From assembly GCF_000703085.1 (NCBI RefSeq), contig NZ_JNLL01000001.1, positions 868,001 through 932,000 of the forward strand: DNA of 64,000 nucleotides. The letters run 5' to 3'. The translations under genes and the position numbers were made by a program. Position 1 is the first letter of the stretch. Each line of letters starts with the position of its first letter. This DNA is from Persephonella sp. KM09-Lau-8 (GTDB taxonomy: Bacteria; Aquificota; Aquificia; Aquificales; Hydrogenothermaceae). The notes under the pieces were generated by a model that saw nothing but the letters and a program-made list of their open reading frames with translations, ran no database searches and was not told where the DNA came from. Below are positions 1,624-41,889 of the stretch, piece after piece.

Positions 1624-1682
1624 TATATACACATACTAAAAAAATTTTATAACAAATCACTAAGATTTAAATGGAGGGTAAG

Positions 1683-4600
1683 ATGTTTAGCGAAAATCTA
1701 CTTGATAAACGGTCTAAAGAATATTTAGAAACAGCAAAATCTATTGCTAATAGAAGGGGCGATAGATTAACAGATACAGACCATTTACTAATGGCCTTAA
1801 TTTCAAAGGAAGATTCCCCACTTAGAAAAGTTCTGGAAAAAAGGGGAATTGATGTAAAAGATTTAAGGCAAAAGATAGAGGAATACCTCAACGACCTATA
1901 CTCCCAGATTGATAAATCAACAAGGGAGTATATTAACTACATAAAAGACCTTCAAGGCCAGCTTACCAGAATTAGAAATGATGTTCTAAAAATTTTAGAT
2001 GAACTTAAAAAAGTAGCTGCCGCTAAAAAGCAGCTTGAAAATGAGCTCAGATATGAAGAAAGCTCTTTCTGGGGTGGTTTTGGTAGCTCTACAAGATTAG
2101 AGTATGAAAGACTAAACAGATATGAAAAGGAGCTTAAGTCCCAGCTATCCCAGATTAAAAACTCACTTCTTCAAGTAATGGATGAGGAAACAGCAGACAG
2201 ATTCCTATCTGGAGAGGCAGGATTATCTGCAATTCTGTATAAAATAATAGAAAACTCTGATTTTGTTAAGCAGCTAAAAGATTTAGGAATATCTCCAGAT
2301 AGGGTTGTTGTTAAAATAGCCGAAGAGGCATTAGGAACTAAAAGCGGAAAAATATATGCTTCTAATCTTATAAAAGTTTTAGAAGAAGCAGAAAAGAAAG
2401 CCCTTGAAAGCGGCGAAGCACAGGTTAAACCTTTATATATAGCAACAGCTTTAATTGATGCAAAAGATACAATTGCAGGAAAAATCTTAGAACAAATATT
2501 AACAGGAGGAAAGGAAAAGATGAACGGAGAAAACATACAGCAAGAAATGGCTGAAGAAGAAAAATCTCCATTAGAAAGATTTACTGTAGACCTTACACAA
2601 CTTGCAAGGGAAGGAAAACTTGACCCTGTAATTGGTAGGGAAAAAGAAATTCAACAGGTAATTGAAATTCTTCTCAGAAGAACCAAAAACAACCCTGTTC
2701 TTGTTGGTGAGGCAGGTGTTGGTAAAACAGCAATTGTTGAAGGTCTCGCACAAAAAATAGTAAACAAAGAAGTTCCAGAGGAACTTTTTGATAAAAGAAT
2801 TTTAGCACTTGATATGGGAGCTCTCCTTGCAGGAACAAAATATAGGGGAGAATTTGAAGAAAGACTAAAAGGCATTATTGATGAAGTCAAAAAATCAGAA
2901 GGAAATATTATCCTGTTCATTGATGAGCTCCACACAATTGTTGGTGCCGGAGCTGCTGAAGGTTCAACAGACGCAGGAAACCTGCTTAAACCTGCACTGG
3001 CAAGAGGAGAGCTTAGAGTAATCGGTGCAACAACCCTTGATGAGTATAGAAAATACATCGAAAAAGATCCAGCATTAGAAAGAAGATTCCAGCCTGTATT
3101 GGTTGAAGAGCCAGATGTTGAAACAACAATAGAAATACTCAAAGCACTTAGACCAAAACTTGAACAACACCACGGTGTAAAAATTGCAGACAGTGCCCTT
3201 GAAGCAGCTGCAAAACTTACACACAGATACATACAGGACAGAAGATTGCCTGACAAAGCTATTGATGCATTAGATCAGGCTTGTGCAAGAAAGAAACTCA
3301 AGCTTGTATATGCTCCACCTGAAGTAATAGAACTGGAAAGAAAAATAAAACTCCTTGATGAGCAAATTGTTCAGGCTTCATTAGATGGAGATTACGAAAA
3401 AGAAGCACAGCTCAAAATAGAAAAAGCCAAACTTGAAAAAGAACTTAAAGAACTGATGGCTAAATCTGACAATGAACATCTTAGACTTGAACAGCTCAGA
3501 AAACAGCTTGAAGAACTTGAAGAGCAAATTGTAAAAGCTGCAGAAGCAGGAGACTATGAAAAAGAAACAGAGCTTAAAATAGAAAAAGCCAAACTTGAAA
3601 AAGAGATAAAAGAGCTTGAACACAAGATTGCAGAAAGAACAGTGGTTACAGAAGACGATGTTGCAGAAGTAGTTTCTGACTGGACAGGAATACCTCTGTC
3701 TAAACTGAAAGAAGAAGAAATGGAAAGACTTCTTCACCTTGAAGAAGAAATGCACAAAAGAGTTGTTGATCAGGAACATGTTATCAAAACAATTGCTGAA
3801 GCTATCAGAAGAGCAAGAGCAGGTCTTTCTGACCCAAGAAAACCACTCGCATCATTTATGTTCCTTGGTCCAACAGGTGTAGGTAAAACAGAAACAGCAA
3901 AAGCATTAGCAGAACTTCTGTTTGGAGACGAAGATGCACTCATAAGACTGGATATGTCTGAGTTTAAAGAAGAACACTCTGTTGCTAAGCTTATTGGTGC
4001 ACCTCCAGGATATGTAGGATATGAAGAGGGTGGTAAACTTACAGAAGCAGTAAGAAGAAGACCATACTCAGTAGTTCTCCTTGATGAGATAGAAAAAGCT
4101 CACCCAAGAGTATTTGACCTGTTCCTGCAAGTGCTGGATGATGGAAGACTTACAGACTCACAGGGTAGAACAGTCAACTTTAGAAATACAATTATCATAA
4201 TGACATCTAACATAGGTAGCCAGTATCTTACACTGATACCATTTGATGCAGATGAGCAAACTATAGAAAAAGAGTTTGAAATTGCCAAAGAAAAAGTTTT
4301 AGAGGAAGTTAAGAATTACTTTAGACCGGAATTCCTGAACAGATTAGATGAAATACTGGTATTCAAACCACTGTTCAAGAAAGAACTGCTACAAATTGTT
4401 GACCTTATGCTTAGAAATCTTAACAAAAGACTTATTGAAAGAAATATACAGATTGAGGCTACAGATAAAGCTAAAGAGCTTATTGCAAAACTTGGATATG
4501 ACCCTGTTTATGGAGCAAGACCTCTCAGAAGAGCTATACAGAAATATGTTGAAACTCCACTTTCTGAAAAAATACTTAAAGGAGAGGTCAAACCTGGAGA

Positions 4601-4688
4601 CACCGTCATTATTGATGAAGAAAATGGCGAACTGGTCTTCAAGGTTAAAGAGGAAAAACAGGAAGAGAAACAAGAAGAAAACAAATAA
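1683..4688 (+). CDS. clpB: ClpB disaggregase (Hsp104 family) with enlarged N-domain
   Basis: ClpB is a hexameric AAA+ machine that pulls apart protein aggregates with DnaK. The start is set at 1683 because GGAGG (1673-1677) lies between an upstream in-frame ATG (1671) and this one. The protein has about 1001 residues. Clp-N repeat 1 is at about 5-70, a long charged helical insertion at 75-225, and Clp-N repeat 2 at about 230-285. D1 carries Walker A GEAGVGKT (342-349) and Walker B LFIDE (411-415). The middle coiled coil spans about 550-655, and D2 has Walker A GPTGVGKT (729-736) and [11 protein letters not shown]. From memory, Aquifex ClpB has a similar length. Within the coiled coil, a [17 protein letters not shown] block occurs twice, 54 residues apart. 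Both ATPase sites look intact. Confidence 0.95.
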
Positions 4689-4728: not shown

Positions 4729-4835
4729 GTTGCAAACAGGCTTATAATGGTGTATAAGTTATAACAAAGGATTTGGTTACATGTCAGAAGAATATGATTT
4801 ATGTCATATAAAAATCTCTACAAAATCGGGGTGTG

Positions 4836-5028
4836 AATTTTAGCAAGATAGACTAAAATTTTGGCTAATTATTGAAAATAAAGGTTTAGCAGGTTGCATA
4901 AATTTTATGCACGTGAAAGTTTGTAGAAATTTCACAATTTGGAGCAAAACATTGAAAATAAAGGCCGATAAGCAAATTTTAGGGAAAATTCTAGACACAT
5001 TTAAAAACATAAAACTACCTGCTAAACC
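4836..5028 (+). other. Nested inverted-repeat block, possible structured RNA
   Basis: A perfect 12-bp inverted repeat, GGTTTAGCAGGT (4883-4894) and ACCTGCTAAACC (5017-5028), encloses three smaller hairpins. They are TGCATAA/TTATGCA (4895-4901/4905-4911), GTGAAA/TTTCAC (4913-4918/4930-4935) and AATTTT/AAAATT (4975-4980/4985-4990). Just outside is AATTTTAG/CTAAAATT (4836-4843/4853-4860). The loop of the second inner hairpin (TTTGTAGA, 4920-4927) is complementary to TCTACAAA at 4817-4824, which would allow a pseudoknot. Short AT-rich stems arise by chance; the 12-bp closing stem is the least expected. Confidence 0.4.
4871..4964 (+). repeat. 14-bp direct repeat in the leader of array A
   Basis: ATTGAAAATAAAGG occurs at 4871-4884 and again at 4951-4964, 80 bp apart. 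The first copy runs into the left arm of the 12-bp inverted repeat. It could be a protein-binding or spacer-integration motif in the leader, or the trace of a local duplication. Confidence 0.6.
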
Positions 5029-5043
5029 GCAAAAATCTAAGCT

Positions 5044-5365
5044 CTGGAACTGACCCGCTGTTTTGAGGGTATTGCGACTTGGCTCGGTGGGCCTTTACCC
5101 TCCGGGGACGGGACCGGACTGGAACTGACCCGCTGTTTTGAGGGTATTGCGACATTCAAAAGTTGTTACCCATGGCCTCTACCCCTCGGGGGTCTGGAAC
5201 TGACCCGCTGTTTTGAGGGTATTGCGACCCATCCGGTCGCCGGACCCCGGCCGCAGTCCCACTGGAACTGACCCGCTGTTTTGAGGGTATTGCGACCTGG
5301 TCCGACACATAAAACTTAGTCGGACCGTAAACCACTGGAACTGACCCGCTGTTTTGAGGGTATTG
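5044..5365 (+). CRISPR. CRISPR-like array A: five 35-nt repeats, four GC-rich spacers
   Basis: Four identical 35-nt repeats start at 5044, 5119, 5194 and 5262; a fifth (5335-5365) matches for 31 nt and then diverges. The repeat begins CTGGAACTGACCC and ends GGGTATTGCGAC. Spacers are 40, 40, 33 and 38 nt (5079-5118, 5154-5193, 5229-5261, 5297-5334). ACCC and GGGT inside the repeat can pair, leaving ATTGCGAC as an 8-nt tail, as in Cas6-type repeats ending ATTGAAAC. The decayed right-hand repeat puts the leader on the left and gives + orientation. By hand count the spacers are about 70, 53, 79 and 47 % GC, far above the surroundings. No cas gene is in the window. A non-CRISPR structured-RNA array remains possible because each spacer holds a short inverted repeat. 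Confidence 0.75.
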
Positions 5366-5547
5366 TAGCTATAAATCTGGATTTAGGAATTTTTGGAGTT
5401 TATCCCCAAAAGCTCTTATTTTGTCCTTTTTGAAAGATAACTGAAATCAATTAAATAAACCAGTGAAAAGTATAATATTCCCAATTTTTCCTAATATACC
5501 TTCCTTTCTGGTATAATTTTTTTTAATATCTTTCTACGGGGAAACAT
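5366..5547 (+). promoter_or_regulatory. AT-rich gap with likely -10 box for the 5548 gene
   Basis: TATAAT at 5512-5517 lies 31 bp before the TTG start at 5548. The -35 region is poor (TCCTAA at the best spacing). I see no other feature between array A and the next gene. Confidence 0.4.
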
Positions 5548-5819: not shown

Positions 5820-6707
5820 ATGGCAGCTGTTATTTTAGATGGTAAATCCCTTGCAAAACAAATAAGAGAAGAACTCAAAAAAGAAATAGATGGTTACATT
5901 CAAAAAGGATTAAGGAATCCTAATCTGGTGGTAATACTTGTTGGGGATGATCCTGCAAGTCAGGTGTATGTAGAAAACAAAAGAAAAGCCTGCAAAGAAG
6001 TCGGTATTAACTCAATGGTTTTTAAACTCCCTGAAAATACTACCCAGACAGAACTCCTTGAGCTGATAGGAAAATTCAACGGAGATGAGGATATAGATGG
6101 CATTCTGGTTCAGCTCCCTCTCCCATCACACATAAACACTCAGGAGATAATTGAGGCAATCAACCCACACAAAGATGTGGACGGATTTCATCCGGAAAAT
6201 ATGGGTAAACTGGCTACCGGCAAAGATGATGGAATAATTCCTTGCACACCTCTTGGTATCTGGATAATGCTTAAACATTACAAAATCCCTACATTCAAAA
6301 GAGATGTTGTAATAGTAGGGGCAAGCAATATTGTAGGGAAACCAATGGGACTTTTATTCCTGAAAAATGAAGAAGCTCCTGTTTCCATCTGCCATATAAA
6401 CACAAGAGATTTAAAATCCTATACAAGAAGGGCAGAGATACTTATTGTTGCCGTTGGAAAGCCCGGATTAATCACAGCAGATATGGTCAAAGAAGGTGCT
6501 GTTGTGATAGATGTTGGTATAAATAGACTGGAAGATGGTTCTCTGGTTGGAGATACCGATTTTGAGGCATTAAAAGATAAAGTATATGCTATTACACCAG
6601 TTCCCGGTGGTGTTGGACCTATGACAGTGGCTTCTCTACTGCTAAATACGGTTAATATTTACAGAAAAAAACTTGGGTTTGCTCCTCATCCGCTTACTCA
6701 GATTTGA
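5820..6707 (+). CDS. folD: FolD methylenetetrahydrofolate dehydrogenase/cyclohydrolase
   Basis: FolD interconverts 5,10-methylene-, 5,10-methenyl- and 10-formyl-tetrahydrofolate with NADP(H), feeding purine synthesis and formyl-Met-tRNA. The 295 residues are of normal length. The catalytic-domain signature YVENKRKAC (Tyr and Lys of the active site), the substrate-binding QLPLP and DVDGFHPEN segments, and the dinucleotide-binding GASNIVGKPMGLLF are all present. PVPGGVGPMT closes the domain. A GGAGAAAAA stretch precedes the ATG. The 3' end overlaps the convergent DUF502 gene by 14 bp. Confidence 0.97.
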   Translation: MAAVILDGKSLAKQIREELKKEIDGYIQKGLRNPNLVVILVGDDPASQVYVENKRKACKEVGINSMVFKLPENTTQTELLELIGKFNGDEDIDGILVQLPLPSHINTQEIIEAINPHKDVDGFHPENMGKLATGKDDGIIPCTPLGIWIMLKHYKIPTFKRDVVIVGASNIVGKPMGLLFLKNEEAPVSICHINTRDLKSYTRRAEILIVAVGKPGLITADMVKEGAVVIDVGINRLEDGSLVGDTDFEALKDKVYAITPVPGGVGPMTVASLLLNTVNIYRKKLGFAPHPLTQI

Positions 6708-10724: not shown

Positions 10725-11273
10725 TTATAAGAGCCCTCTTCTTTTGAGAGCATCTTCATATATTCTGTTGTAAAGGATTCTCCACTCTGGAGTCCCTTCA
10801 ATAATTTTCTTTGAATAAGATTTAATTCTCTGCCTTACTTCTCTGTCTATCTCTTTTTCTTCTTTTACAAGCTGTTTGAGCATCTCAAAAACTTTTCTTC
10901 TTATTTTGTTAGGATGCTCAAAAATCTCTATGCTGTCGTCTGTCTCAATATATTTCTTTATTCTATGGGCTATCTGGTTCATCCTTTCTTCAGGGTCAAG
11001 ATGTATGTTTCTTTCTTCTGCAAGCTTTTCTTTTACTTTTAGAACTGCTGTTCTGTATCTGATGTCTTCCTCTTCTATAAGGTGCATATGCTGTTCTACA
11101 AGCCTTTCTGCTTCTTCCTCTATCTCTTTTTCTTCCTGAATTGCATTATTTATTATTTCAAATAATTTATTTCTAAATTCTTCTTCATTTTCCGCTTCAA
11201 TATAGTGCTTTTCTATCAGTTCTTTTTCTATATTGTTTACGATTCTCTCTACCAGCCTTGCTGGTATTTTCAT
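10725..11273 (-). CDS. DUF507 family helical protein
   Basis: A highly charged, all-helical protein of 182 residues with no known function. The start is set at 11273 because GAGGAGG lies just upstream; an in-frame TTG at 11288 would include that site. The two halves look alike: EEEFRNKLFEIINNAIQEEK in the first half resembles NKIRRKVFEMLKQLVKEEK in the second, so the protein is a tandem of two DUF507 units. It heads the run DUF507-galT-carbonic anhydrase, 24 bp before galT, and has its own promoter. Confidence 0.85.
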   Translation of the reverse strand: MKIPARLVERIVNNIEKELIEKHYIEAENEEEFRNKLFEIINNAIQEEKEIEEEAERLVEQHMHLIEEEDIRYRTAVLKVKEKLAEERNIHLDPEERMNQIAHRIKKYIETDDSIEIFEHPNKIRRKVFEMLKQLVKEEKEIDREVRQRIKSYSKKIIEGTPEWRILYNRIYEDALKRRGLL

Positions 11274-11305
11274 TAAAATCCTCCTCAAATAATATTCAGA
11301 GTGTT

Positions 11306-11333
11306 ATTATATTACACTTTAAATCTTTTTCAA
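11306..11333 (-). promoter_or_regulatory. Promoter of the DUF507-galT-carbonic anhydrase operon
   Basis: On the minus strand TTGAAA (11333-11328) and TATAAT (11311-11306) are 16 bp apart, a near-consensus sigma-70 promoter 33 bp upstream of the DUF507 start. Confidence 0.75.
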
Positions 11334-11346
11334 AATCAGGGTAAAA

Positions 11347-12243
11347 ATGGCAAAAATAATTAATTTTGACTGGAATATAAAGGAAAAACCTTCAGATTTT
11401 TTAGTAAAAGAGGTGTCTGAACTTGAAAAAGACGAAAACGGGCAGTTTTACCTTTATTTGCTAATTAAAAAAAATATGAACACAAAAGATGTAACAGACA
11501 GATTTAAACTAAGTTATGCTGGTCTAAAGGATAAAAATGCAATAACTTTCCAGTATGTTACTTCACAAGAGTTTCTTGGGGAGGCAATCTTTGAAAAAAA
11601 TCAAGATAGCTTTTTTGCACTTATATATCAGGGAAAGGTAAGAAAAAAACTGAAAATAGGACAGCTTAAAGGAAATAAATTTTCTATAGGACTAAAAGGA
11701 CACAGATTAAAACTGAAAGACTGGTTTATTAATTATTATGACCTTCAGAGAATAATAAGAAACAGAGAAAGAGGAAAAAAACTATTAAAAGAATTGAAAA
11801 CTGGAATCAAATGGAAACATCTTAAATGGAGGGAAAATTTTTATATAGATGCTTATCTTTCCCATCTATGGAATAAAGCTGTTATGTATGTACTAAAGCA
11901 AAAGTATGATGGATTTATAGTTGTGGAAAAAGGAGTTAAATATTTTATCCCCTATACAGATTATAATGAGCTAATGTCTGATTTTTATAAGTTTTTCCCA
12001 ATTCTGGGATATAAAGTAAAACTATCCCCTGAAGAAGAAAACATTTACAGGGAAATTACCCAAAAAGAAATTCCATTTGACGAACTTATGGAAAAATTAT
12101 CCCAGCTCAGAATAAAAGGTGATTATAGAAAAACATTTCTAAAAGCTGAAGATGTTTATATAACGGGAGATAGAATTAATTTTTTCCTGCCTAAAGGGGC
12201 TTATGCAACAATGTTCCTGAAAAATCAGGAAATTATTCGTTAA
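11347..12243 (+). CDS. truD: TruD-family tRNA pseudouridine synthase
   Basis: TruD makes pseudouridine at position 13 of tRNAs. The 298-residue protein shows EKPSDFLVKEV at the N-terminus and the catalytic loop YAGLKDKNAIT with the expected Asp62. It continues with GNKFSIGLKG and a short NYYDLQR segment where most members have NYFGEQRFG. It is shorter than the E. coli enzyme (about 350 residues), mainly in the inserted TRUD domain. GGGTAAAA precedes the ATG. The last 11 bp overlap the convergent DUF523 gene. The divergent NYF motif lowers certainty about the target base a little. Confidence 0.87.
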   Translation: MAKIINFDWNIKEKPSDFLVKEVSELEKDENGQFYLYLLIKKNMNTKDVTDRFKLSYAGLKDKNAITFQYVTSQEFLGEAIFEKNQDSFFALIYQGKVRKKLKIGQLKGNKFSIGLKGHRLKLKDWFINYYDLQRIIRNRERGKKLLKELKTGIKWKHLKWRENFYIDAYLSHLWNKAVMYVLKQKYDGFIVVEKGVKYFIPYTDYNELMSDFYKFFPILGYKVKLSPEEENIYREITQKEIPFDELMEKLSQLRIKGDYRKTFLKAEDVYITGDRINFFLPKGAYATMFLKNQEIIR

Positions 12244-40931: not shown

Positions 40932-41008
40932 TGGTGGGCCCGGGAGGACTCGAACCTCCGACCGGACGGTTATGAGCCGTCTGCTCTAACCAACTGAGCT
41001 ACGGGCCC
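40932..41008 (-). tRNA. tRNA with CAU anticodon, probably Ile2 (lysidine type)
   Basis: On the minus strand all arms fold: acceptor GGGCCCG/CGGGCCC, D arm GCTC/GAGC, anticodon arm GACGG/CCGTC with loop CTCATAA, and T arm GGAGG/CCTCC with TTCGAGT. Discriminator A and an encoded CCA end the 77-nt gene. CAU could be Met or Ile2. C4-G69, C5-G68 and C6-G67 are the TilS identity pairs known from E. coli tRNA-Ile2, so I lean to Ile2. Confidence 0.96.
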
Positions 41009-41312: not shown

Positions 41313-41889
41313 GTTTTTAGAGTGCCTATAAGGAATTGAAACAAGACTTCCCCCAATTATCAGGTTCAGCCCACAGTTCTTTCAGTTTTTAGAGTGCCTA
41401 TAAGGAATTGAAACTCATCATCTCCAAATATAATCACAATTTCATGGACTCGTTTTTAGAGTGCCTATAAGGAATTGAAACTAATCAAGTGTTTTTAATC
41501 CTTGCATGATTTTACCTCCTGGTTTTTAGAGTGCCTATAAGGAATTGAAACTTTCCAGCAACAACATTATTAACAATCATTTGTTTAGGGTTTTTAGAGT
41601 GCCTATAAGGAATTGAAACTTTCCAGCAACAACATTATTAACAATCATTTGTTTAGGGTTTTTAGAGTGCCTATAAGGAATTGAAACTGTAGTATGTCCT
41701 CTCTGTGGTATTTCAAGAAAACTTGAGTTTTTAGAGTGCCTATAAGGAATTGAAACTTGGTTTTTCTGGCAAAATGTAAGCATCATTAAAATCGTTTTTA
41801 GAGTGCCTATAAGGAATTGAAACTAAAGCTCCCTGTTTGCTATATAATCAAATACCGCAGTTTTTAGAGTGCCTATAAGGAATTGAAAC
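41313..41889 (+). CRISPR. CRISPR array B: nine 30-nt repeats, eight spacers
   Basis: Nine identical repeats begin at 41313, 41385, 41452, 41522, 41590, 41658, 41727, 41794 and 41860. Each begins GTTTTTAGAG, contains CCTATAAGG, and ends AATTGAAAC. Spacers are 36-42 nt. Spacers 4 and 5 (41552-41589 and 41620-41657) are identical, a recent duplication of one unit. The repeat resembles those of subtype I-B systems such as in Clostridium thermocellum; type III systems can share such repeats. No cas gene is in the window. Confidence 0.98.

Follow-up and report, generated by a model that had tools for sequence, protein, structure and literature searches.

Well-studied CRISPR integrases are twofold symmetric (PMC12259127), yet they act on an asymmetric leader-repeat target and orient the spacer that they insert. 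In E. coli, one Cas1 per dimer catalyses integration and Cas2 serves as the structural bridge (PMC10011333), and the Cas1-2/3 integrase of P. aeruginosa is a C2 symmetric heterohexamer, which has to orient itself correctly on the leader (PMC12259127). Variants of the adaptation module linked to type III systems have been described as well, namely the RT-Cas1 modules (excerpted text of PMC11014452), and on the effector side a type III system built around CalpL, CalpT, and CalpS is known from Sulfurihydrogenibium sp. YO3AOP1 (excerpted text of PMC11417357).

Here, we analyze a CRISPR array in a 64,000-nt stretch of Persephonella DNA (the window, whose positions are given without prefix), together with the cas genes and sibling arrays found in the same genome (G000; 2.07 Mb in two contigs). 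Spacers are labeled W, C, D, or E after their array, so that the contig G000:C1 is distinct from spacer C1. The system resembles the Cas1-Cas2 integrases of E. coli and P. aeruginosa in having a Cas1 with its Glu, His, and Asp, Cas2 proteins of normal length, and an array beside the genes; whereas the known complex is symmetric and holds one kind of each protein, two kinds of each are encoded per cassette here, one of the two Cas1 proteins being a degenerate homolog (dCas1) without the Glu and His. Like the RT-Cas1 modules, as far as the excerpted text of PMC11014452 presents them, it is a variant of a type III-linked adaptation module, but the locus inspected here showed no reverse transcriptase. 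The likeness to the Sulfurihydrogenibium system, within the excerpted text of PMC11417357, lies in a single type III operon that combines a SAVED-Lon protease with a CalpT-like protein and a candidate sigma gene, although the candidate sigma gene beside SAVED-Lon here found no family match in family-model searches; that excerpted text makes no mention of satellite arrays or of a dual-Cas2 and dCas1 cassette. The literature on duplicated, paired, or inactive Cas1 and Cas2 (open-access articles, with few subscription journals) held no matching description, and within the open-access literature the dual-Cas2 and dCas1 cassette looks new.

The window array and its leader

The array spans 5044-5369 and comprises five 35-nt repeats with the consensus CTGGAACTGACCCGCTGTTTTGAGGGTATTGCGAC and four spacers of 33-40 nt (Table 1). 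It has the features of a CRISPR array, namely near-identical direct repeats (repeats 1-4 are identical) with unique spacers of similar length between them, as well as the expected polarity, with an AT-rich leader at one end and a degenerate repeat at the opposite end. The repeat core has 17 matches genome-wide at up to three mismatches and its reversed-pattern control has none, a difference far beyond chance. The CRISPR-like array proposed by an initial annotation, made from the window sequence alone, is thus real. Its extent had been given as 5044-5365, of which the start stands but the end does not, since the degenerate fifth repeat reaches 5369, and the description had omitted the 315-nt leader altogether. 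The same annotation was right about composition, as the 322-nt stretch has a GC fraction of 0.575 vs 0.345 for the window and is practically the window's GC maximum, one of 6,368 sampled placements of equal length reaching that value. Taken alone, the window array is a genuine small CRISPR array and an ordinary satellite of a type III-D system.

Table 1. Positions of the window array, its flanking genes, and the sibling arrays in G000
Feature	Coordinates	Strand	Basis or remarks
ClpB-type AAA+ ATPase gene, upstream neighbor	1671-4688	+	Ortholog precedes the equivalent site in G001
Leader	4729-5043	+	315 nt, AT-rich (30% GC); leader alignments
Repeat 1	5044-5078	+	Repeat alignment
Spacer W1	5079-5118	+	40 nt, 70% GC; 29-nt core common to spacer C1 of the cas-linked array
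Repeat 2	5119-5153	+	Repeat alignment
Spacer W2	5154-5193	+	40 nt, 53% GC
Repeat 3	5194-5228	+	Repeat alignment
Spacer W3	5229-5261	+	33 nt, 79% GC
Repeat 4	5262-5296	+	Repeat alignment
Spacer W4	5297-5334	+	38 nt, 47% GC; hairpin GGTCCGAC...GTCGGACC, folding z-score -5.5
Terminal degenerate repeat	5335-5369	+	...TATTGTAGC; near-identical copy is the sole repeat at the G001 site
folD-type gene (THF dehydrogenase/cyclohydrolase), downstream neighbor	5820-6707	+	Ortholog follows the equivalent site in G001
Array C	G000:C1:632766-633330		8 repeats; beside cas locus
Array D	G000:C1:531953 to about 532,280		5 repeats; cas6 upstream of leader
Array E	about G000:C1:489034-489356		5 variant repeats; diverged leader

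The window repeat recurs in arrays C and D of the same genome, whereas array E has a variant repeat. Leader identity among the window array, C, and D is 85-89% across some 315 nt, the window leader being 85-86% identical to those of C and D and 82-87% identical to those of sister genomes; the leader of E has diverged. The earlier term "orphan" accordingly fits the neighborhood, in which no cas gene is evident among the window ORFs, but not the genome, where the same repeat and leader stand at C and D. Within the leader, the near-palindrome TGCATAAATTTTATGCA (4895-4911) is kept in most of the leaders compared and may be where the integrase or a host factor binds. The window contains one further array, B (41313-41889, minus strand, nine repeats, near the tRNA-Met gene at 40932-41008), the repeat of which belongs to Rfam CRISPR-DR2 and differs from that of the window array, as the initial annotation had stated.

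The remote type III-D locus and the spacers

A type III-D cas locus lies with array C at about 618-633 kb of G000:C1, some 240 kb from the window array, and next to array C it encodes two Cas2 and two Cas1-like proteins together with the effector operon. The operon encodes Csx19 (TIGR03984, 7.6e-29, over its cut-off), a Csx7-like RAMP, a Csx10-like RAMP (the Csx10-type Cas5: PADLOC Cas5_IIId at 2e-114, and NCBIfam Csx10 at 2.9e-20, which is under the curated cut-off), Cas10d (PADLOC 1e-126, with the GGDD cyclase motif present in the translation), a SAVED-Lon protease, a CalpT-like neighbor, and the candidate sigma gene, and it is followed by a further RAMP protein. The Calp-like genes match CRISPR-Lon at 8e-98, CRISPR-T at 1e-4, and Unk_02 at 1.7e-31. 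At L011:5763-9600, a single type III-D operon holds a CalpL-like SAVED-Lon, a CalpT-like protein, a member of PADLOC family C3a162, and a candidate sigma gene. The leader of array D is immediately preceded by the end of a cas6 gene (Pfam 1.6e-8). Since the repeat and leader are held in common, the cas genes adjoin array C, and cas6 adjoins array D, we conclude with high confidence that 4729-5369 is a leader-equipped satellite array of the type III-D system that the same chromosome encodes some 240 kb away, which is the kind of remote system that the initial annotation had supposed the array to need.

The content of the array sites varies among relatives. Between the ClpB-type gene and folD, the sister genome G001 has a leader and a single repeat, almost identical to window 5335-5369, with zero spacers, and the contig break at this site falls within the leader, outside the array. 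The site of array D holds two repeats in G006, with one spacer unlike any of the four in G000, so that orthologous sites carry 0 vs 4 spacers (site W) and 1 vs 4 (site D), and the arrays of relatives hold many distinct spacers. Because spacer content varies at a fixed site, the window array reads as an adapting satellite array rather than a fixed element or a recent import. The initial annotation had suggested looking for the repeat outside arrays and for conserved spacers in relatives: within the own genome the repeat was seen in arrays alone, and the same site in G001 has different content, with no spacer, so its array reading survives on both counts. The leader-plus-single-repeat sites of sister genomes are natural test sites for the acquisition of a first spacer.

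Three other readings of the array have to be weighed. That the array and its GC-rich spacers were transferred horizontally from a GC-rich organism, an arrival from elsewhere that the initial annotation had also entertained, would explain why repeat and spacers are so much richer in GC than the chromosome; it is largely refuted by the AT-rich leader and the same terminal repeat at the orthologous site of G001, and among 136 Aquificota genomes the GGGTATTGCGAC repeat family (CCCGN(5-10)AGGGTATTGCGAC) is carried by 18, every one of which belongs to the family of the window. We hold such a transfer to be highly improbable, and the comparisons with sister genomes make a recent import in general unlikely. 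Hardly any weight can be given to a fixed repetitive element with another function, for although spacers recur with variation across arrays (the W1/C1 core; C5, which resembles D3) and array C contains duplicated spacers, orthologous sites differ in both the number and the sequence of their spacers, a leader and a cas locus are present, and the relatives' spacers are many and distinct. That the array is a relic, its system having ceased to add spacers, is an unlikely, if conceivable, reading: the array has only four spacers, and the 100% complete genome G006, where searches detected neither dCas1 nor the partner Cas1, has no more than two repeats in its array at site D, but in the own genome the reading frames of Cas1, dCas1, both Cas2 proteins, Cas10, and Cas6 are still open, and the identity of repeats 1-4 likewise speaks against decay. 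The adapting satellite array remains our preferred reading.

More than half of the distinct spacers of the window array, C, and D (8 of 13) exceed 50% GC, as against none of the four of array E. The 29-nt core common to W1 and C1, the presence of C1 twice in array C, and the similarity of C5 to D3, which scores above all 200 shuffles, together suggest that a single family of GC-rich targets was sampled more than once. GC-rich invaders are a possible source, as the initial annotation had thought, and the search of viral and plasmid sequences that it recommended was run and yielded no protospacer: nothing convincing came from the phages and plasmids, and five exact spacer cores were absent from IMG/VR. 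The 136 Aquificota genomes likewise gave no convincing protospacer, with two marginal matches at E 0.02-0.04. The high GC content of the spacers recalls structured RNA, which raised the question of self-targeting, with host rRNA, tRNA, or some further GC-rich RNA as the source; no spacer matches the own genome outside arrays, and this reading was dropped. Derivation of spacers from RNA by an RT-Cas1 was set aside because inspection of the locus revealed no reverse transcriptase. The GC-rich cores that recur might instead have been coding sequence, but related spacers are offset by 2 nt (judged by eye), which leaves no consistent reading frame.

In the working model, the remote adaptation proteins would insert spacers next to the leader of the window array, Cas6 would cut the array transcript into crRNAs with the 5' tag AUUGCGAC, Cas10d complexes would use these crRNAs against invader RNA, and a cyclic oligoadenylate signal would set off a CalpL/T/S-like cascade.

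Two observations on array sites in other genomes may be recorded here. At G006:C5:304543, 400291, and 508110 (L101-L103), the clpB-type gene, a leader with an array, and folD each lie about 100 kb apart, and the homology break falls at the leader start; leaders or arrays may have served as recombination sites. In two genomes, an ATPase gene of about 400 aa stands between CRISPR arrays (L080:5677-6879, AAA_14/DUF4143; L073:5777-6982).

Paired Cas2 and Cas1 paralogs in the adaptation cassette

The clade of Cas1 proteins that partner dCas1 has two Cas2 domains near Cas1 in 28 of the 30 Aquificota loci examined, flanking Cas1, in tandem, or fused in one protein (L140 and L141, and L071 as well), the exceptions being L122, where none was seen, and L120, which lies at a contig edge. 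A distance of about 0.8 kb separates the two Cas2 of L123. As a control, the same profile found one Cas2 at each of nine more distant Aquificota Cas1 loci (9/9), which are probably type I and one of which, L054, ends directly after its Cas2. Both paralogs match Cas2 family models, and the two-Cas2 cassette is present in several Aquificota families. In the Cas2 tree, which is built on a short protein and was read without support values, the paralogs separate within families; an ancient duplication is not claimed from it. At L071, the 211-aa Cas2-Cas2 fusion (11061-11696) adjoins Cas1, and some 4 kb from it stands a further cassette, Cas1-Cas2-Cas2.

The second Cas1-like protein of G000 matches Pfam Cas1 at E 0.0026, under the gathering score. 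When relatives were searched with it, one homolog was found, in G029 beside the same genes; inspection of the canonical-Cas1 loci of the genus revealed another dCas1-type protein adjoining two Cas2 genes, and a profile search recovered 10 loci in 9 genomes. With the own-genome type included, the family is present in 10 of 136 Aquificota genomes. A search of named genomes recovered it from Persephonella and Hydrogenothermaceae records (e.g., JALSNI010000068.1), and a search of IMG/VR gave no relatives of dCas1. Wherever flanks are present in Hydrogenothermaceae, a dCas1-Cas2a-Cas1-Cas2b cassette with overlapping genes recurs; G000 and G029:C179 depart from this gene order. A frameshift interrupts the dCas1 of G029:C179 (L037:10166-11081) and may be an assembly error, decay, or a programmed shift.

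By hhalign, dCas1 is a full-length homolog of Cas1 (97.9-98.3% probability over 238-243 columns). Neither the catalytic Glu nor the catalytic His is present in any dCas1 sequence: the LGIEG motif is lost, and every complete member of the main group has LN for LH, while the catalytic Asp is kept in the main group and lost in the own-genome protein. The partner Cas1 retains Glu, His, and Asp, with Glu replaced by Asp in both Cas1 proteins of G116. The second Cas1 is apparently catalytically dead. Its dN/dS is 0.15-0.21 over four pairs (0.12-0.18 for the partner Cas1), a low value that argues for maintenance under purifying selection. A structural model built from dCas1 rows alone is weak (pLDDT 56; Z 10.3, rmsd 3.9 over 157 residues), and nearly all of the PDB matches listed for it are Cas1 or casposase; with Cas1 paralog rows added, which bias the model toward Cas1, pLDDT rises to 71 and the match to T. 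maritima Cas1 has Z 16.8 and rmsd 3.9 over 253 residues. Five loci of the partner clade gave no dCas1 match (G018:C2, G025:C17, G011:C75, which is at a contig edge, G034:C44, the one locus of the five that was inspected, and G034:C146), as did G031 (99% complete), which has 20 window-type repeats; given those five loci, dCas1 may be optional in the Cas1 clade.

We consider it somewhat probable that the adaptation complex is a heteromeric Cas1/dCas1-Cas2a/Cas2b integrase, on the grounds of homology, gene order, fusion, and conservation under selection. Each catalytic Cas1 would have dCas1 for a non-catalytic partner, and a Cas2a-Cas2b heterodimer would form the bridge; dCas1 would suit the non-catalytic Cas1 position, and the Cas2 heterodimer would render the ends of the complex unlike. 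A competing explanation, which we rate as less probable though a serious contender, makes dCas1 an accessory in prespacer selection, trimming, or regulation of Cas1-Cas2, with the two Cas2 proteins as separate homodimers. The missing Glu and His of every dCas1 and its detection in only part of the Cas1 clade would suit such a role; the Cas2-Cas2 fusions, which imply a joint Cas2 unit, the retention of whole-Cas1 length and of the predicted fold, and the gene overlap, which suggests translational coupling, favor a subunit of the integrase. If the heteromeric integrase is real, the role of each half can be tested by omitting one subunit. More tentatively, and at slightly less than even confidence, we suggest that type III systems of Aquificota may use an obligately asymmetric integrase with Cas2a-Cas2b, sometimes fused, and, in Hydrogenothermaceae, Cas1 with a dead Cas1, the differing ends of which could, through the identity of their subunits, read the leader side vs the spacer side or set the orientation of the spacer.

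A 211-aa gene that matches no Pfam family follows the second Cas2 and adjoins cas6 at L072:2037-2672 and L074:8032-8667, and is possibly a further degenerate Cas1.
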